Origin: Halobacillus salinarum
GTDB taxonomy: Bacteria > Bacillota > Bacilli > Bacillales > Halobacillaceae
Assembly: GCF_022919095.1 (NCBI RefSeq)
Contig: NZ_CP095073.1
Coordinates: 620,001-684,000 of the forward strand
Direction of reading: 5' to 3'
Length of the DNA stretch: 64,000 nt
Of the stretch, positions 38,964-54,974 are shown in pieces (position 1 is the first letter of the stretch; every line of letters begins with the position of its first letter). Made by a program: the position numbers and the translations under genes. Under the pieces are notes generated by a model. It worked only from the letters and a program-made list of their open reading frames with translations, made no database searches and was not told the DNA's origin.

Positions 38964-39972
38964 ACTTCGTGATATCTGCTAAGATTTTATAGGAATTTAA
39001 TCGATCCTTATGGTTATAGATTTGTGAAATGACCATCATTTCATCTGCTTCTGTCCGGTCTAAAAAGCTTTGTAATTCATCTTTAACTTTTTCTGGACCT
39101 CCAATAATAGAAGAACCTAATTTTTGTTGCAGTAAGGCTTCTTCCTGGTGGGTCCAAATAGTGTCCATGCTTTCTACAGGTGGCTGGAGGGGTAGATTTG
39201 TGTTCCGGATCAGATTGATAAATTGCTGTTTAAGCGACGTCGATAAGAATTCAGCTTGTTCATTATTTTTTGCTGCTACTACATTAACTCCGACCATAGC
39301 ATAAGGTTCTTGTAACACCTCAGAAGGCTCAAAGCTGTCCCGATACAGTTGGAGCGCCGGAAGTGTTTCGTTCGGAGAAAAATGGCTGGCAAAAGCAAAT
39401 GGAAGTCCAAGCTGCCCTGCAAGCTGAGCACTAAAACCACTGGAGCCCAGCAGCCATATCGGGATATCCAGCCCTTCCCCGGGGATCGCTCTTACATGAC
39501 TGTTTCCAGAGCGCAAGCCGTCGTGAAAATACCCTCTAAGCTCATCCAATTGTTGAGGGAAATTGTGACCGCTGCTTCCTGAACCGCGTCTGAGGGCATG
39601 AGCCGTGACCTGGTCAGTTCCGGGAGCTCTTCCTAGTCCTAAATCAATTCTTCCTGGGTAAAGTGTTTCAAGTGTCCCGAATTGTTCAGCTACCATAAGT
39701 GGTGCATGGTTTGGAAGCATAATCCCTCCGGATCCTACACGAATGGTATTCGTATGGGAAGCCACATGACCGATTAATACAGAAGTAGCAGAACTTGCAA
39801 TAAACGGCATGCTGTGGTGTTCCGCAAGCCAGTAACGGGTAAAGCCCAAATCCTCCGCATACCTGGCTAAATCAATTGTGTTCTTATACGATTCGGCAGG
39901 GCCGCCTCCTTCGGTGATAGGAGCTAAATCTAAGACTGAATAGTTGATCTCTGAGAGTTGTTTTTGTGTCAT
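38962..39972 (-). CDS. Luciferase-like (LLM) flavin-dependent oxidoreductase
   Basis: The 336-residue protein belongs to the bacterial luciferase-like monooxygenase superfamily, in the group that includes YceB/YtmO-type proteins of Bacillus. Markers are [13 protein letters not shown] at the start, [35 protein letters not shown] and [13 protein letters not shown]. Such enzymes use FMNH2 and oxygen; the substrate is not known. I start at the ATG at 39972; a GTG three codons earlier is possible. It is divergent from the glutamate dehydrogenase gene. Confidence 0.9.
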
Positions 39973-40150
39973 TCCATCCACTTCTTTCTTTAGCGATTAC
40001 TTAAACTTAGCTTCAGTTTATCAAGGTTATTTCGAGTATCAAAATAATTTGTTCTCCCCGATGATTCTTCTTTCAGCACTTCTTTACATAAAAAATCTTT
40101 CTCAGTGGCAAGTTATACCTATGTATGGCATGTACACTGGAGGGATATCA

Positions 40151-41460
40151 ATGACAAAGGCAGAAGAGCATAAAACAGAAGCAGATATTACAACTCATGA
40201 CCGTAACCCTTATGAAATCGTTCAGGAGCTGCTCAAAGAGTCCGTGGAAACGCTGGGACTTCACGATAACGTCTATCACCTTTTGAAAAAACCGATGAGA
40301 GTATTAGAAGTCTGTATTCCTATTCGCATGGATGATGGGACGATCAAAAATTTCACAGGATTTCGCTCGCAGCATCTCGATATTTTGGGGCCAACAAAAG
40401 GTGGGATTCGATTTCATCCATCTGTAAATGTAGATGAGGTGCGTGCCCTTTCCATCTGGATGTCGCTGAAGTCAGCGATCATAGATCTTCCTTTAGGGGG
40501 AGGTAAGGGGGAGTGATCGTGAACCCTAGAGAGCTCTCAGAACGTGAGTTGGAGGAACTCAGTCGAAGCTATATCCAAAAGATTGCTTCCATTATCGGTC
40601 CTCAAAAGGATATTCCAGCCCCTGATGTAAATACAAGTCCGAAGATTATGGGGTGGATGATTGATGAATTTGATAAATTAAGGGGATTTAACATTCCGGG
40701 AATGTTAACAGGCAAGCCTATTATCATTGGAGGTTCAGAAGGCAGGCTCGAAGCTACCGGCCGGGGTGTCGTGTTTATGATTAGAGAAGCTGCAAAAGTT
40801 CTTGGGATGGAGCTGAAAGAGTGTACCGCAGCCCTTCAAGGGTTTGGAAATGTCGGAAGTATGACAGCTAAATTTCTTCATGAGCAAGGGGTTAAGGTCG
40901 TCGGGGTAACGGATGCTAAAGGCGGGATCTATGATGAGAACGGTCTTGACATTCCTGTCCTGCTTGATTTTATAAAAGAAGGAAAATATGTATCGGATTA
41001 TTCCAAAGCTTCTTCTATAAACAATAACGATTTGTTTGGCTTGGACGTAGATATCTTAATTCCAGCAGCCATTGAAAACCAAATTACGGATGAAACAGCC
41101 CCTATGATCAAAGCGAAAATACTCGCAGAAGCAGCAAACGGACCAACGACGCCAGCCGGGGATAAAATCCTTGAGGAAAAAGAGATCTTCGTCATTCCTG
41201 ATATCCTCTGCAACGCGGGTGGGGTCACTGTATCTTACTTTGAGTGGGTTCAAAATGCGATGAATTATTATTGGAAAGAAGAAGAAGTAAATAAACAATT
41301 GGAAGAGAAGATGGTTACAGGTTTTCAAAACGTTATCAAGATGCGTGAAGATCGCCAATGCAGGATGAGGCAGGCAGCTTATATGGTAGGAATCAAACAT
41401 ATCGTAAAAGCTCTTCATGCACGCGGATGGATTAAAGATGATGATTTATCAGCGGATTAA
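40151..41460 (+). pseudogene. NAD-type glutamate dehydrogenase, frameshifted
   Basis: Two adjacent frames together encode a full RocG/GudB-like glutamate dehydrogenase (about 436 residues). It would interconvert glutamate and 2-oxoglutarate. The first part starts at ATG 40151 (GGAGGG 6 bases upstream) and ends DLPLGGGKG; the second begins VIVNPRELSERELEEL. The break falls in the catalytic lysine motif GGGKGG: the run of five G at 40507-40511 would need one more G to restore the frame. The second half holds the NAD-binding LQGFGNVGSMTAKF and the C-terminal GGVTVSYFEWVQN. Conservation on both sides is intact, so the indel is recent or a sequencing error. A GTG at 40513 could let the C-terminal part be translated alone, but it would be inactive. 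Confidence 0.92.
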
Positions 41461-46485: not shown

Positions 46486-47679
46486 ATGGCGCAGGAATTT
46501 ACCGTAAAACTTCGTTATCCACATGTGAATAAGTATAAAAAAGGGTATCCACTTATCCTCAAGGATGCAATTGACCGACCTGAGTTGCTTAAGCAGGAGG
46601 GGGCGGTGATTAAAGTCCTTGATGACCAAGGGAACTTCGTTGGACGAGGCTTTGCCGGGAAGCAGAACAAAGGTCTCGGCTGGATCGTTACCCATCAAGA
46701 GTCTGATCAGTTGGATGCTTCCTTTTTCGATCAGAAAATCCAACACGCTTTAGAGAAAAGACATGCTTTTTTTCTAGATGAGGACACGGATGCTTTCCGT
46801 ATTTTTAATGGGGAAGGCGACGGGATCGGTGGACTTACAATTGATTACTTTGCTGGGTATTATGTAATCAACTTTTATAGTGAAGGCATTTATGCTTTCC
46901 AGTCTTGGGTTATAGATGCAATCAAGAGAATGACTGATTACAAAGCGATTTACCAGAAGAAACGTTTCGGGAAGCAGGGCACTTATATCGAAGAAGATGA
47001 ATTTGTGGCAGGGGAGAGAGGAGAATTCCCCATAATTGTTAAAGAAAATGGAATCCGCCTGGCTGTTTATCTTAATGAAGGTGCCATGGTAGGAGTTTTC
47101 CTTGATCAGCGGGAGGTACGCAAAACCCTTCGTGATCAATATGCCGAAGGATGCAGTGTACTCAATACGTTCTCTTATACGGGAGCCTTCTCTATCTTTG
47201 CTTCTGCAGGAGGTGCCTCTCATACGACCAGTGTGGACTTGGCAAATAGGAGTTATGCAAAGACGATCGAAAATTTCAGTATGAATGCTCTTGATTTTGA
47301 AGCACAGGACATCATTGTTGAGGATGTCTTTAAGTATTTTAAATACGCGAAACGCAAAGAGAAGTCGTTTGATATCGTTGTATTGGATCCCCCTAGTTTT
47401 GCCCGTTCTAAAAAACACATGTTTCGAGCTGAAAAAGACTATCCTTCTTTATTAAAGCAAACGATCGATATCACTGAAGATCAGGGCATGATCATTGCTT
47501 CTACCAATTGCAGTAAATTTAATATGAATAAATTTAAACAGTTCGTTAAGCAAGCTTTTCAGCAATCAGGCTGTCCATACAGAATTGAAAAAGAGTTTTC
47601 CCTCCCTTCTGATTTTCCTACTCTCCCTCATTTTAAAGAAGGGAATTATTTAAAAGTATTATTCATTAGAAAAGGTTAA
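46486..47679 (+). CDS. Class I SAM-dependent rRNA methyltransferase (RlmI-like)
   Basis: The 397-residue protein combines an N-terminal PUA-like domain (about residues 1-75), a central domain and a Rossmann methyltransferase with VLNTFSYTGAFSIFAS and the catalytic IVVLDPPSFARSK. This is the layout of RlmI/YwbD, which methylates a cytosine of 23S rRNA in enterics. The exact base in Bacillus is not certain from sequence. GGCAGGGAAG precedes the ATG. Confidence 0.88.
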   Translation: MAQEFTVKLRYPHVNKYKKGYPLILKDAIDRPELLKQEGAVIKVLDDQGNFVGRGFAGKQNKGLGWIVTHQESDQLDASFFDQKIQHALEKRHAFFLDEDTDAFRIFNGEGDGIGGLTIDYFAGYYVINFYSEGIYAFQSWVIDAIKRMTDYKAIYQKKRFGKQGTYIEEDEFVAGERGEFPIIVKENGIRLAVYLNEGAMVGVFLDQREVRKTLRDQYAEGCSVLNTFSYTGAFSIFASAGGASHTTSVDLANRSYAKTIENFSMNALDFEAQDIIVEDVFKYFKYAKRKEKSFDIVVLDPPSFARSKKHMFRAEKDYPSLLKQTIDITEDQGMIIASTNCSKFNMNKFKQFVKQAFQQSGCPYRIEKEFSLPSDFPTLPHFKEGNYLKVLFIRKG

Positions 47680-47729: not shown

Positions 47730-47745
47730 GTTGTGTTTGCAATAA

Positions 47746-47882
47746 TGTGTACATGTTTACAAAAATGACTGCTTTTGTGTTCAATTTAGTGTACATGTAT
47801 ACAAATATGTGTACAAGTTGTTAAATCAATGTGTGTACGTGTTTGTATGCAAGTACACAAAAATGAAGGCATGTATGCAAAA
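47746..47882. repeat. Centromere-like cluster of TGTACA-type repeats (parC candidate)
   Basis: This AT-rich stretch contains GTGTAC at 47747, 47789, 47809 and 47833, a reversed copy GTACAC at 47853, and a variant CATGTATGCAAA at 47870. The fullest copies read GTGTACATGTTTACAAA and GTGTACATGTATACAAA. Intervals are about 20-24 bases (42 between the first two), about two helical turns. The cluster directly precedes the ParM-like gene and its promoter, where type II partition systems keep their ParR-binding centromere. Confidence 0.65.
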
Positions 47883-47903
47883 AAGAATGCGGAAAAAGAC
47901 ACA

Positions 47904-47932
47904 TTGACTAATAATAGAATATTTAATAGATT
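47904..47932 (+). promoter_or_regulatory. Candidate promoter of the ParM/ParR-like genes
   Basis: TTGACT (47904-47909), 17 bases, TAGATT (47927-47932). It lies just after the repeat cluster, so binding there could repress it. Confidence 0.45.
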
Positions 47933-47986
47933 TAAACTAATGTGAGACAATATCTGTCCTTGCAAAATAAATCCAAAGGGAGTTTG

Positions 47987-49183
47987 ATGATATTGACAAC
48001 TGCTAGAATAGCTGCGATTGACGTAGGAAATGATGCGCTCAAAGCGAATTTCGGGAAACTGGAATCTGATTTATATATTCCAAACGTAATAGCAAGAGAC
48101 TTAGAGGATCGACCAGTGATCGGAATAGAAGAATTAGATGAGAAAGATCCACTCGATAATATACATATTCGAGTGCATTCACCTGCCTTGAAAGAAAATA
48201 ACGCCATTTATCGTGTAGGTACACTGGCAACAAAAACGAGCAATTCGACGGAACTTGACCCAGGAAGCTATAAGTCAGAAGAAGATCAGACTTTAGTTAT
48301 GCTGTTTGCTGCGCTGGCACTTGACGCGGTTTCAGGCAAGAATGCAGCCTCCAGCAAAAACAATGTGATCGATGCGGATTATATTCTTGGCACCGGCCTG
48401 CCTTTGCGGGAAGTCAAGGAAGGCAAAGATGTAGGCTACCGCTCTCAGCTGCTAGGATCTGTCCACCAGGTGGAATTCCTTGTCACGCCTAAGTATCAAG
48501 GAATTAAAGTGAATTTAAAATTTGACGAAGTAAAAGTCTATCCAGAAGGATTTGCAGCCTATGTGAACCTTGTTATGGATAATGAGTTGAATATTATCAA
48601 CAAAGAACTGATTGATAAACAAATCCTCATTCAGGATATTGGTGGATTATCTACAGATATTGCTGTAATCCGCAATCGAAACGTCGATGACGATAAAGCC
48701 CAGGGCTTTAACTTAGGAGTGGCTGAATCGCTTGAAGCTATTCGAGATGAAATCTTAACGAAGCATGGAGTGGAATTGGACAGCCGCCGTGACGTAGTGG
48801 ATATTATCACGCGTAATAACGACCGCCACCATATTATGGTGAAAGGCAGCCGCACGAATGTGCACGATATAACAGATCGTATTCTGCTTGAACTCGCTAA
48901 GAAACAGTACCGTTACCTGCGGAATGTTTGGCAGAAAAATTCTCAATCAGAGATCTGCTATTTTGTTGGTGGAGGTTCTGCAGTCTTAAAAGACTATATT
49001 AAAACCTTGAATAATAAGCTGGACGGATTCAATATTGAGTTTTTTGAAGATGAGAATGAAAGCATTTGGATGATGGCTAATGCTTACTATAAATTGATCT
49101 CTGATTTCATTCGCAAAAATTACAAGACAACAGAAAAAGACAGCAAAAAAGATTCAAAAGAGAAAACGGCTTCATCGAAGTAA
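47987..49183 (+). CDS. ParM/StbA-family actin-like ATPase
   Basis: The product (398 residues) is an actin-fold ATPase: phosphate 1 loop AAIDVGNDALKANFG near residue 10, phosphate 2 QDIGGLSTDIAVI, and adenosine loop YFVGGGSAVLKDYI. The length, late K-rich tail (KDSKKDSKEKTASSK) and order with the next gene match plasmid segregation filament proteins (ParM, AlfA, Alp types) rather than MreB. ATG 47987 follows AAGGGAG by 4 bases; a GTG at 47942 and a TTG at 47993 are alternatives. It lies among housekeeping genes, not plasmid genes. A role in moving DNA is inferred; it may serve another filament function. Confidence 0.85.
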   Translation: MILTTARIAAIDVGNDALKANFGKLESDLYIPNVIARDLEDRPVIGIEELDEKDPLDNIHIRVHSPALKENNAIYRVGTLATKTSNSTELDPGSYKSEEDQTLVMLFAALALDAVSGKNAASSKNNVIDADYILGTGLPLREVKEGKDVGYRSQLLGSVHQVEFLVTPKYQGIKVNLKFDEVKVYPEGFAAYVNLVMDNELNIINKELIDKQILIQDIGGLSTDIAVIRNRNVDDDKAQGFNLGVAESLEAIRDEILTKHGVELDSRRDVVDIITRNNDRHHIMVKGSRTNVHDITDRILLELAKKQYRYLRNVWQKNSQSEICYFVGGGSAVLKDYIKTLNNKLDGFNIEFFEDENESIWMMANAYYKLISDFIRKNYKTTEKDSKKDSKEKTASSK

Positions 49184-49192
49184 GGTGATAAG

Positions 49193-49801
49193 ATGCCAAA
49201 TTCAAAAAAGAGTGTGGAACGGGGACAATCGATTACCTTTCGTGTCCCCTCAGACACACCAGATCATCTATTAAGGCAGCTTTCTGAGTTAAAAGATAAG
49301 GAACGGCGGAATTTTTCCAGTAAAATCGCTCAATTTGTCCTGCAAGGGGTAAATGACTCACTGGCGAGAGAAAAAGAAACCATTACAGTCCCTCTCCCCC
49401 GTAAGCTGACAAAAGAGCAGCGGAACTGGATCAAGCATGAACACTCAGAGGCACTTATCGGCAGTATATTGTATCAGCTCATGCTCGATCCTATGAGAGC
49501 CACTTCATTACTCGCTTCACTCAACAGCAATGCCTATGATATCGATGAAGCATTATACTTACAGGAAGAAATGGCTGCGTCTCACGAGCCCTCCCCTTCC
49601 CCTGTCAGTCATAACGAATCAACTTCCTCCCTTCCTGAAGAAAAGGATGAAGCTGATTGGGGCGATATTGATGATAAGCTGGACGATTTAAACTTGGACA
49701 GCCTGCAAAATGATTTGCATACACAGCAAGAGAAGAACGAAGAAAAAGAAGAGAACGACGATGATTTATTAGGGGACTTTCTTTCCAGTATGAATAAGTA
49801 A
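49193..49801 (+). CDS. ParR-like ribbon-helix-helix DNA-binding adaptor
   Basis: The 202-residue protein has an N-terminal part like a ribbon-helix-helix domain (SITFRVPSDTPDHLLRQLSE, then KERRNFSSKIAQFVLQG), a middle helical region, and an acidic, disordered tail from about residue 130 that ends LLGDFLSSMNK. In type II partition systems ParR binds centromere repeats by such a domain and touches the end of the ParM filament with a C-terminal motif. It lies 9 bases after the ParM-like gene and is followed by a terminator. I recognise no close named family, so the ParR assignment rests on architecture and context. Confidence 0.72.
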   Translation: MPNSKKSVERGQSITFRVPSDTPDHLLRQLSELKDKERRNFSSKIAQFVLQGVNDSLAREKETITVPLPRKLTKEQRNWIKHEHSEALIGSILYQLMLDPMRATSLLASLNSNAYDIDEALYLQEEMAASHEPSPSPVSHNESTSSLPEEKDEADWGDIDDKLDDLNLDSLQNDLHTQQEKNEEKEENDDDLLGDFLSSMNK

Positions 49802-49834
49802 AAAGCCGAGTAGAGTATTCACTCGGCTTTTTTA
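49800..49834 (+). terminator. Rho-independent terminator of the partition cassette
   Basis: AAAAAGCCGAGT pairs with ACTCGGCTTTTTT around a short loop. Confidence 0.85.
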
Positions 49835-49849
49835 TGGACAAAATTTTGA

Positions 49850-49910
49850 ACAAAATTACGGACTTAGTAGTACAAAAACACGGACTAATAAAAACAAAAT
49901 CATGGACTGG
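49850..49910. repeat. Three 22-bp-period direct repeats
   Basis: ACAAAATTACGGACTTA (49850), ACAAAAACACGGACTAA (49872) and ACAAAATCATGGACTGG (49894) start exactly 22 bases apart; on the minus strand the core is AGTCCGTG-TTTTGT. Two turns of the helix per unit would place proteins on one face. It follows the ParR-like gene immediately, but its sequence differs from the upstream TGTACA repeats. It could equally be a dispersed intergenic repeat. Confidence 0.6.
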
Positions 49911-50867: not shown

Positions 50868-51950
50868 TTGGGCGACGTATTTACCAGACAGGTGGATAAA
50901 ATGGGAAGAATCGTTATTCCTAAGGAAATACGCGATCAGCTTGATTTTATGAATCAAGTGTTATCAATTGAAGTTTTCAAAGACAGCCGGGGAATTAGTG
51001 TCGCAAAGACCGGTAACAAGACTGAGGATACGAAATCCCTCGATAACTATGGCCGTCTCCTTATACCAATAGAACTAAGACAAAAGCTTGGATGGGAGCA
51101 GGGAAAAGAACTTGAAATAACACTTGAAAAAAATAAAGCTGTTCTGCAGGATCAGATGGCCCAGTGCCAGATTTGTGGATCAACAGATGCCCTGCTTGCT
51201 GTAAAGCAAGCATTTATATGCGAGGGGTGCTTACAGGAAGGATTGGAAAAGAACACTAATGAATGGACAAGCTTCGTGGACGAGCTGGTCTATGAATACC
51301 AAGAGGAATGCCTTGCTTCCTTAAATTTTGAAAACACTGAAGACGTTCATCAGGCGAGAGTGAAAGGGCGTAGGCTCAGCGCTTTGTTAGGATTTATTGG
51401 GCTGACAAGCGATCACGGTCTCATGGACAAAATACACCGTGCCCATGGAATTTTAGGCAAGGTCAGAGAAAGAGACGTGCTGATCGAAGAATTTGAAAAA
51501 CGTGCAGACAATGAAGAAGATGAGGACAAAGCAAAGGTGTATCAACAAGTTGCAGAAAAAGTAGCTAAAAAAAGAGAGAAGCACCGAAAACGTATGCAAC
51601 AAGAATTACCTGAAGTGATTGATCAGGAGTTTCTCGATTTATGGAGTGAATTTAAAAACCGTACATTCAGAAAATACGTGTTTATTGTCGACGTCACAAA
51701 AAGGCTGGAAGAATATGAAGAGGCATTTAATCAAAAAGTAGAAGACTATCAACAGTCTGCCGCTAACGAAGGCGTAGATTCCGAAGATGCTCTTGATGAG
51801 CTGCATCGTGTGAGAATTGAATCCAAATATTTGCGATATATTTACCGTTATCTTCACGATATTTATAACGAGGATTATAAAGAACAAGCTGACCATTATA
51901 AAAGTTTCCAAAGACAATTCGGGACATTAACGATTTGCGTAATTGGATAG
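50868..51950 (+). CDS. AbrB-AbrB-zinc ribbon-CHAD fusion, C-terminus frameshifted
   Basis: The protein has two SpoVT/AbrB swapped-hairpin DNA-binding motifs (about residues 6-28, RQVDKMGRIVIPKEIR, and 55-76, KSLDNYGRLLIPIELRQ), a zinc ribbon with Cys100, Cys103, Cys118 and Cys121, then a CHAD domain (from about 135) with VHQARVKGRRL and LHRVRIESKYLRYIYRYL. CHAD domains bind polyphosphate in characterised cases. The frame stops at 51950 after QRQFG; one extra G at 51921-51923 would continue it as DINDLRNWIEEVRKHRKK to 52087, completing the last CHAD helices. Start is TTG 50868 after AAGGTGGTGA. A polyphosphate-responsive regulator is inference. Confidence 0.8.
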   Translation: MGDVFTRQVDKMGRIVIPKEIRDQLDFMNQVLSIEVFKDSRGISVAKTGNKTEDTKSLDNYGRLLIPIELRQKLGWEQGKELEITLEKNKAVLQDQMAQCQICGSTDALLAVKQAFICEGCLQEGLEKNTNEWTSFVDELVYEYQEECLASLNFENTEDVHQARVKGRRLSALLGFIGLTSDHGLMDKIHRAHGILGKVRERDVLIEEFEKRADNEEDEDKAKVYQQVAEKVAKKREKHRKRMQQELPEVIDQEFLDLWSEFKNRTFRKYVFIVDVTKRLEEYEEAFNQKVEDYQQSAANEGVDSEDALDELHRVRIESKYLRYIYRYLHDIYNEDYKEQADHYKSFQRQFGTLTICVIG

Positions 51951-52089
51951 AAGAAGTACGAAAGCATCGTAAAAAAATTGATGAAGATAAGAGTGTAGTG
52001 AAAAAAGTTAGAAAAGAGTTAGAGAAAGAGTTGGCAGAGCACTTAGAACAGGTTACTATTCGTCCAGATAGAGCTGAAAAAGTATAAGA

Positions 52090-53286: not shown

Positions 53287-54974
53287 TTACCGACGTTTTA
53301 CCCATGTAAATCCATAGAGTGGGAGTTTGATTGTTTTCTCTGCCACTTGATCATTGACAAGGTCCTGTCCATTAAAAGGCAGGGGAACAGTCACTTCTTT
53401 CCGTGAAGTATTGACAGCGAAAAACAATTCTTCCCCCGTCTTGTTATTCTTTCGAATCAATGAAAATACACGGTCGTCTAATTCTACGATTTCCTGTTCA
53501 GCATAAGGGGAAAAGGCACTCTCATTCTGACGTAAGAGGATCAATTGTTTCAAGCGGGTAAATATTTCTGCTCGTCGTCCATTCTTATGAAGTTCTGCCT
53601 TCAGTTGGGAATATTCCAGTTTTTCACGATTGATTCTCCTTGGTATGCCGGATTCCTTGTACCCTTGAACGTCGTTAGTAGAACCAAGTAAAGAATGATA
53701 GTAGATGGCAGGTACTCCGATAACTGAAAAAAGAATAGAGTGAGCAGCAATGGTTTTCCTAATTTCATCCTCAAGAGTCACATCTTCCTCGTTATTTACT
53801 AAAGCTTGAGAATAATTGATGTTTAACTCATAGACAGACTGTGAACCATCAGGATTACTTTTGTATGACACTTCTCCGCCGTTGGCTTTCACTTGATCGA
53901 CAAGCTGCTGTTTTTCTTCGTCATTTAAGATCCCTTCAGTAGGGCGCATTCCTATCCCGTCATGGCTGGCAAGGAAATTGAAGAAGGTGGCTTCAGAAGA
54001 CACCTTGTCTATTGATTTCGCCCATTTTGTCAATTTTCCTGCATTATGGTTGATGAAACTAAACAAGACTAATGGCGGCAGCGTAAACTGATAAACCATG
54101 TTGGCTTCATTGAAGCCGTTGCCAAAGTAACTGATATTTTCTTTGTGCGGCACGTTTGTTTCTGTAATGAGTTGAGTATTCGGCTGAAAAGCATTGATAA
54201 TCGTGTGCCAAAGCTGAATGATGGAATGAGCTTCGGGCAGATGAATGCAAGTAGTTCCTGATTCCTTCCAAATAAATCCGATCGCATCAAGGCGGATGCT
54301 TGTTGCTCCTTGATGGGCATATTCCAGCAGAATATCTGTCATTTCTGCTAAGGCAGGAACGTGCTTAAAGTTTATATCGACTTGGTCTTTACTGAAGGTC
54401 GTCCAAGCTGTTTTTGTCCCCCATCTTCTTCATATTCATGAAACAAGGGAGACGTGCGCGGACGTACAACTCGGCTGGCGTCAAAATGATCCTCTTTTGG
54501 GATGAAAAAGTGTTTGTACTTAGAATCGTTGGCTAAATAGCGTTGAAACCATTCACTTTCCTGAGAGATGTGGTTCGCTACAAAATCAAACATCAGCCGG
54601 TAATCCTCTGAAAAGGAACGGATATGGCTCCAATCTCCTAATTTAGGATGGATCGTACGATAATCAGAAACAGAAAATCCGTCATCTGATGTAAAAGGAA
54701 ACATAGGAAGCAGATGGACATCGGTAATCGCGTTTCCAACCTCTTCGGATAAAAATTTGTGAAGAGTTGGTAGCGTCGGAGTGTTTTGTTCGTAAATGCT
54801 GTCACCATAAGCAATTAAATACACGTTTTTTTCAGTTAATACAGCGGGATGCTGCCAATCTTTTTCGGACCACTTATCGACGAGCTGGCTGAACAACTCC
54901 ACATCTTTTTCTTCCACGCGGCCATAAATATCAGTTAAATGTCGCCTGATCTTCTCCATTAATGGTTCGTTCAT
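53287..54974 (-). pseudogene. GH13_18 phosphorylase (glucosylglycerate/sucrose type), frameshifted
   Basis: Two frames on the minus strand together encode a full GH13_18 phosphorylase of about 562 residues. The first (from ATG 54974, overlapping the GH38 stop) runs to GGQK; the second carries the nucleophile motif TSIRLDAIGF, acid/base LITETNVPH and FLASHDGIGMRP. The frames join as QKTAWTTFSKDQVDINF if one T (A on the coding strand) is added to the run at 54411-54415. In this operon the likely substrate is glucosylglycerate, split with phosphate to glucose-1-phosphate and glycerate; sucrose-type activity is the alternative. Sequence conservation on both sides argues for a recent indel or a sequencing error. 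Confidence 0.85.

Follow-up and report, generated by a model that had tools for sequence, protein, structure and literature searches.

ParM systems are textbook plasmid motors, and Alps were reportedly the subject of a study by Derman and colleagues in 2009. That ParMs also occur on chromosomes was established by Ali et al. (2025; PMC12270681); that article describes Dh-cParM1, Cb-cParM and a putative Bt-cParM of Bacillus tropicus, with polymerisation shown for two chromosomal ParMs and a ParR-bound parC for one of them, Cb. According to the same article, Dh-cParM1 is 84-98% identical within its genus, Bt-cParM is conserved on several Bacillus chromosomes, and, in a figure legend, a putative replication initiation factor lies beside Cb-cParM. 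The accessions of Bt-cParM1/2 are WP_001968526.1 and WP_000025611.1. The authors proposed a function beyond plasmids for chromosomal ParMs and argued that cParCMR does not replace ParABS, while a word search of the main text returned no statement on the nearness of cParMs to the replication origin (PMC12270681). Two further systems invite comparison: the plasmid system of pSK41, whose ParR is quoted as binding 20-bp repeats (excerpt of PMC9426499), and Salactin of Halobacterium, a chromosomal actin homologue with a proposed role in chromosome segregation (abstract of PMC10746226). In our search of openly accessible main texts, Ali et al. was the only report found on chromosomal ParM, and a broader literature search returned no other title naming a chromosomal ParM of the group described here.

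Here we report on a ParM-ParR pair, cParM and cParR, found in a 64-kb stretch of Halobacillus salinarum DNA (hereafter the window, in which all positions are counted). A first-pass annotation had recognised in it the full layout of a ParMRC system, a claim that is supported by the protein families, by homology to plasmid ParM-ParR pairs and by a parC-like array. Wherever its chromosomal position could be checked, the cassette is close to the origin, with neighbours that change from one group to another.

The two-gene operon and its upstream array

The setting is chromosomal, as the annotation had stated: the cassette is carried on one 4.24-Mb contig, where the two genes form an operon between an RlmI-like rRNA methyltransferase gene and ordinary metabolic genes (Table 1). 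A Pfam scan of eleven other window proteins, one of which was matchless, revealed no plasmid or phage family, in line with the earlier statement that such genes are missing from the vicinity.

Table 1. Features of the cassette and of its upstream neighbour
Feature	Position	Strand	Basis
RlmI-like rRNA methyltransferase, upstream neighbour (outside the system; positional control)	46486..47679	+	family searches
parC-like array, 11 sites, consensus wwwTGTATACAtGT, core GTNNAC	47742..47893		site model and shuffles
Candidate promoter TTGACT-17-TAGATT, directly 3' of the array	47904..47932	+	9/12 matches, weak
cParM, ParM-type actin-like ATPase, 398 aa from ATG 47987	47987..49183	+	Pfam, PHROG, orthologues, intact motifs
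cParR, ParR-like adaptor, 202 aa	49193..49801	+	homology to plasmid ParM neighbours, place 3' of cParM
cParR N-terminal domain, ribbon-helix-helix pattern, residues 1-112	49193..49528	+	AlphaFold, sequence comparison
cParR acidic linker, residues 113-190, net charge -22	49529..49762	+	sequence comparison
cParR C-terminal motif DLLGDFLSSMNK, candidate ParM- or host-factor-binding tail	49763..49798	+	motif conservation
Hairpin with T-runs, likely operon terminator	49800..49832		listed on - strand; T-run on + strand too

The product of the first gene is an actin-like ATPase, as annotated. Its best Pfam family was Alp7A_like_C (6.5e-36, 124 bits), accompanied by ALP_N (2.7e-8), PHROG placed it in family 691, "partition protein" (2.3e-38), and the DVGN, QDIGGLSTD and GGGS nucleotide-binding stretches are all intact. 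Membership of the MreB, FtsA or Hsp70 groups was rejected, the Pfam scan having produced a secondary match to archaeal MreB-like_C (43 bits) and none to FtsA or Hsp70. The AlphaFold model of cParM is poor (pLDDT 45.6), probably because the alignment is too uniform; the top five Foldseek hits obtained with it were all ParM/Alp, four of them below 1e-3, and the only entries under that value were B. thuringiensis ParM (two entries), Alp7A and Dh-cParM1 (8x1i). Family and Foldseek searches, which the annotation had named as a check for another actin or Hsp70 placement, both keep the protein in the ParM/Alp group. Alternative in-frame starts exist at GTG 47942 and at TTG 47993, the latter being the start position of the relatives in the alignment and also possible.

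In relatives, ParR lies directly 3' of ParM in 80 of 80 named loci, with gaps of 5-19 bp; taken as the best 80 from 443 relatives, these loci are the most similar ones. The N-terminal half of cParR is homologous to small proteins adjoining plasmid ParMs, at 31-42% for the 15 listed rows out of 22 records; the matches cover at most about half of cParR. Its N-terminus contains ITFRV, followed in a strand-helix-helix order by AlphaFold helices at residues 24-36 and 41-59 of moderate confidence (pLDDT 63.8), and would fit a ribbon-helix-helix domain, a pattern for which profile searches of the PDB and searches of Pfam and with Foldseek gave no match (Foldseek none below 3.8).

The remainder of cParR bears out the description of a small protein with an acidic tail and a C-terminal motif, encoded 3' of the actin gene. 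The tail carries a net charge of -22 over 78 aa and ends in DDLLGDFLSSMNK; the same cut applied to 80 relatives delimits acidic linkers of 47-85 aa with net charges of -14 to -31. The full expression D-x-L-G-D-F-(L/F)-S-x-M-N-K is present in 79 of 81 ParRs (80 relatives and the window), and its L, F, M and N in all 81. The motif is absent in the three plasmid ParRs compared, which are 139-144 aa long, have no long acidic linker and end in FAxxTFLxFDDDD, for instance FAQKTFLDFDDDD. The C-terminus of plasmid ParRs contacts ParM, and the cParR tail is a natural candidate for contact with ParM or with a host partner.

The spaced GTGTAC repeats noted upstream of the operon proved to be part of an array of 11 sites at 47742-47893, compared with a mean of 1.4 and a maximum of 4 in 300 dinucleotide shuffles. 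When the 64-kb window was scanned in 400-bp steps, the stretches overlapping the array scored 11, 7 and 4, and the best elsewhere scored 3. Each of the 79 relatives scanned has an array of 7-17 sites (median 12) upstream of ParM, as counted with a site model trained on these same upstream regions and that of the window; for this reason GTNNAC was recounted model-free, which gave 8.3 per 400 bp versus 1.7 in shuffles among the 79 relatives (minimum 1). Spacing in the window's array is mainly 8 and 12 bp, amounting to units of about 20 bp, and GTNNAC pair spacings peak sharply at 8, 12, 20, 42 and 54 bp; the array unit is thus a stretch of about 20 bp built from two sites. Exact TGTNNACA occurs 4.4 times per 600 bp versus 0.11 in 367 control windows, and zero times in at least one locus. 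Of 26 genomes, 7 have a paired pattern, TGTATACA-N(1-30)-TGTATACA, at the ParM locus and 10 have it elsewhere; it was not found in the window's own genome, and it is too strict to count against remote sites. WTMAAYRTGT was tried as an array-centre motif and dropped, being found in only 8 of 79. Promoter matches near the array are no commoner than in shuffles.

Distribution, conservation and position relative to dnaA

Within the family, 40 of 44 genomes (own included) carry a close cParM orthologue at 85-100% identity. The four exceptions belong to a single genus and either have no orthologue or have one at 40%. A match was obtained in 216 of the 397 genomes of the order, about 203 of these matches being strong (E at most 1.5e-195; the 216 less 13 weak ones, read from the match table), with identities of at least 76% among the matches listed; about half of the sampled order is therefore without an orthologue. 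Among the 398 genomes of the class sample, 51 matches at E 1e-30 or better fell into 24 at 77% or more and 27 at 42% or less, with none between, and eight of the 24 came from outside the order. The Pfam domain of cParM is absent in B. subtilis, one of 14 control genomes. All 28 genomes searched have two ParB-family proteins, encoded near the origin, and by this place they are taken to be Spo0J and Noc.

Relatives on mobile elements are more distant. All 79 plasmid ParM records are below 60% identity, the best listed at 43%; the ParM of pBM69 (B. methanolicus) is 43% identical over 92% and has a ParR gene directly 3'. Bacillaceae plasmids do carry pairs of the same group, and these cousins keep the ParM-ParR order, three of their upstream regions containing 4-5 sites of the same model. 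Phage records yielded one weak partial match to cParM, and IMG/VR two contigs with a 72% identical ParM.

Across 351 pairs among 27 genomes, mean identity is 82.6% for ParM versus 83.0% for DnaA (three of 30 genomes were dropped, their DnaA gene being cut by a contig start), and the two matrices are correlated (Mantel r 0.80, 0/2000 permutations). The median pN/pS in 80 comparisons with the window is 0.13 for ParM and 0.28 for ParR; among the comparisons listed, synonymous sites are near saturation with few amino-acid changes. Judged by these substitution patterns, cParM is under strong purifying selection over long descent. The ParM and DnaA trees are not identical: genome G204 has a ParM closer to the window's family than expected from its DnaA, which makes at least one transfer possible. 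As a side observation, this possible cParM transfer concerns G204 and G408.

The annotation had suggested a comparison of synteny, which gave a divided answer: the ParM-ParR pair is kept in 80 of 80 loci, whereas the surrounding genes vary by genus, the commonest neighbour family besides ParM and ParR occurring in only 28 of 80. Position in the chromosome was examined in 29 genomes, all the single-contig ones with a strong match found in the family, order and class tables (26 genomes of 16 genera, G143, and G583 and G657 of another order). In 29 of 29 it was located to the left of dnaA at a distance of 34-325 kb, never more than 7.7% of the chromosome, with transcription directed away from the origin; the distance is 70 kb in G143, about 51 kb in G583 and about 55 kb in G657. 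Four multi-contig genomes agree (about 39-302 kb). So do all 32 of the 50 named genomes with both genes on one contig (34 rows minus two with differing contigs), at 39-527 kb or up to 9.8% of the genome; in the other 18, dnaA and ParM are on different contigs, as confirmed for ten. These 32 share one genome with the four multi-contig ones, and same-contig counts favour short distances, a bias of which the single-contig set is free.

The upstream methyltransferase served as a positional control. It was found in 19 of 26 genomes, 8 of which have it beyond the 10% left of dnaA, whereas cParM is outside this stretch in none of the same 19 (nominal Fisher p 0.003, the genomes being related). In 11 of the 19 it is still in the segment of cParM, which shows that much of the region stays together by ordinary descent. 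A second control gene, DnaI-like, is on the other arm in 3 of 23 genomes (weak matches of the DnaA model taken as DnaI by frame length, with none listed in 3 of 26). The constant origin-near place can reflect ordinary descent, and the genomes are related and not independent. Random jumping of the cassette was rejected by the constant position, though the flanks differ.

Possible roles of the cassette

A cassette so near the origin and so highly conserved suggests that an actin motor provides an extra way for these bacteria to move their own chromosomes. We consider it somewhat probable that a type II (ParMRC) partition system has been domesticated here and acts on the host chromosome. A domesticated DNA-positioning system was one of three options that the annotation had offered, beside a plasmid relic and a filament doing something else, and it is the best fit of the three. 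The simplest mechanism would be that of plasmids with the chromosome as cargo. We infer that cParM polymerises and that cParR binds the array, its dimers coating the sites phased at about 20 bp upstream of the operon; as the array lies in the origin-proximal left replichore, the complex would constitute a segrosome there, the conserved cParR tail would capture cParM filaments, and these would separate the sister origin regions by pushing or pulling, or else keep them in position. This action would run beside the ParB-type system, and since ParB-family proteins are present, the cassette would supplement the usual segregation machinery. Against such domestication speak the absence of the cassette from about half of the sampled order, the lack of the domain in B. 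subtilis and the availability of a ParB-type alternative in 28 of 28 genomes. The same is true of a position that may stem from ordinary descent, of an array that may be no more than an operator, of the paired site pattern seen elsewhere in 10 of 26 genomes, and of the poor cParM model and the empty fold search with cParR.

The main rival is another job for the filament. The same intact ParB-family proteins would agree with it, as would a cParR tail unlike the plasmid tail and the lower conservation of ParR relative to ParM (pN/pS 0.28 versus 0.13). The filament would then have been recruited elsewhere, with the linker and tail binding a host protein of the pole, division or sporulation machinery; the array may perhaps be only an operator, serving mainly for autoregulation, and the origin-near place would follow from gene dosage or common descent. 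We regard this as rather unlikely, as a phased array of such length (median 12 sites) would exceed what an operator is expected to need, and the position is constant while the neighbours change.

Service to plasmids is a third reading, in which the cassette would partition resident plasmids in trans or use the chromosomal array to destabilise incoming ones by incompatibility. The same-group plasmid pairs in Bacillaceae, with 4-5 model sites in three upstream regions, are consistent with it. We judge it improbable, given that none of the 79 plasmid ParMs reaches 60% (best listed 43%), that ParR matches cover about half of cParR at most, and that the origin-near place would be left unexplained. 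In addition, ParR-parC recognition on C. perfringens plasmids is reported to take place only within a family (excerpt of PMC9426499). Finally, that the cassette is a selfish passenger or was left behind by an integrated plasmid or prophage is highly improbable: patchy presence within the order, the possible transfer involving G204 and G408 and the 72% identical ParM on two IMG/VR contigs would suit it, but the constant place, the lack of mobile gene families among the scanned neighbours, and saturated synonymous change with few amino-acid changes at a DnaA-congruent, DnaA-like level of conservation contradict the annotation's "relic of an integrated plasmid".

Returning to domestication on the host chromosome, we tentatively propose its broader form, for which the case is a little short of even: that a large share of Bacillaceae-type bacteria run a second, actin-driven and mitotic-like chromosome apparatus, made up of a fixed centromere on the origin's left flank, an adaptor with a newly evolved tail for binding the filament or the host, and a ParM filament. 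Working alongside ParABS, this filament would separate or anchor the sister origins, possibly when cells sporulate or have low ploidy. Such a system would have escaped notice because B. subtilis, the standard model, is without the cassette; if true, the proposal would explain why work on that species never met it, and would show a route from a plasmid centromere to a chromosomal one. The question of whether bacteria use actin to segregate chromosomes becomes directly testable in culturable species, with Halobacillus, Oceanobacillus, Virgibacillus and Metabacillus as environmental candidates.

Comparison with known systems

Alp7A of the B. subtilis plasmid pLS20 and related plasmid ParMs have the Alp7A_like_C domain in common with cParM, but they are plasmid-borne. 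The three plasmid ParRs compared are short, with a tail like FAQKTFLDFDDDD, whereas cParR has a long acidic linker and DxLGDF(L/F)SxMNK. The 20-bp repeats of pSK41 ParMRC resemble the phasing of about 20 bp observed here, although pSK41 is a plasmid system (excerpt of PMC9426499) and no pSK41 protein was found among the sequence matches of cParM. ParABS (Soj-Spo0J-parS) is likewise a chromosomal, origin-near centromere system, with a different motor. Salactin is archaeal, and its abstract names no ParR or parC (PMC10746226).

Close in kind are the cParMs of Ali et al., likewise ParM-ParR pairs on chromosomes (PMC12270681). A chromosomal pair conserved across species is a feature shared with them, seen here in 40 of 44 family genomes, while the sequence match between Dh-cParM1 and the window's cParM is marginal (E 0.19). 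Compared with the cParMs described there, the present cassette is conserved across many genera and beyond a single order, has a phased array and carries a different ParR tail (PMC12270681). The annotation's remark that no description of such a cassette was known for this group is to be qualified, since chromosomal ParMs, among them some described as conserved on Bacillus chromosomes, were reported in 2025 (PMC12270681). The kind is already known, and what appears new is its breadth, its DnaA-level conservation, its origin-near place, the 20-bp phased array and the ParR tail.

ParM relatives and possible exchange of the cassette

Among the matches listed, ParM of other members of family f46 stands at 80-81% to that of the window, with higher values in two genomes of the same family, G204 and G408 (see table). 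DnaA of G204 groups differently from its ParM, which is nearer that of the window, and on these sequence comparisons horizontal transfer of the cassette of G204 and G408 is possible. Despite such a possible transfer, the G204 cassette again lies 60 kb left of dnaA.

Two putative viral contigs of IMG/VR, L172 (86 kb) and L173 (116 kb), carry a ParM with 72% identity. The collection of phage records yielded no match. By eye, no ParR-like ORF was seen directly downstream of ParM in L173, where the next large ORF resembles a tail-spike protein. A host cParM may have been acquired by a phage.

Coordinates of ParM relatives, repeat clusters and window genes
Feature	Location	Remark
ParM of G204	G204:C1:3562910-3564097	87-89% to window ParM (range for G204 and G408)
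ParM of G408	G408:C17:82107-83276	87-89% to window ParM (range for G204 and G408)
ParM of L173	2992-4134	72% identical
Distant actin-like gene L002	G000:C1:411263-412249	33% identical, ALP_N domain
TGTATACA cluster	G326:C1:3591441-3591485	far from ParM
TGTATACA cluster	G384:C1:4784794-4784847	far from ParM
ParM match of G339	G339:C1:107677-108879	reads through one TGA and one TAA
Glutamate-dehydrogenase-like gene	window 39944-41460	split, two overlapping or adjacent frames (by eye)
Glycoside-hydrolase-13-like gene	window 53287-54974	split, two overlapping or adjacent frames (by eye)
AbrB/MazE-CHAD gene	window 50868-51950	CHAD domain fused with AbrB/MazE-like DNA-binding domain

Second actin-like genes and remote repeat clusters

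The second actin-like gene, L002, lies on the same chromosome as the window ParM, 69 kb from dnaA, and is followed by a 127-aa ORF. Weak second copies (26-33%) are present in many family members, that of genome G018 being remote from dnaA.

The TGTATACA clusters of G326 and G384, genomes of one genus, occupy roughly equal relative positions, and similar clusters occur in G177 and G248. These clusters may represent either secondary ParR sites or sites of another regulator.

Intactness of ParM copies and window genes

The AbrB/MazE-CHAD gene has an apparent continuation in a different frame (window 51935-52087).

The G339 match is possibly a decaying copy, or possibly extends beyond the gene end. 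The split glutamate-dehydrogenase-like and glycoside-hydrolase-13-like genes reflect either frameshifts or sequencing errors; unlike these two, ParM and ParR of the window are intact.
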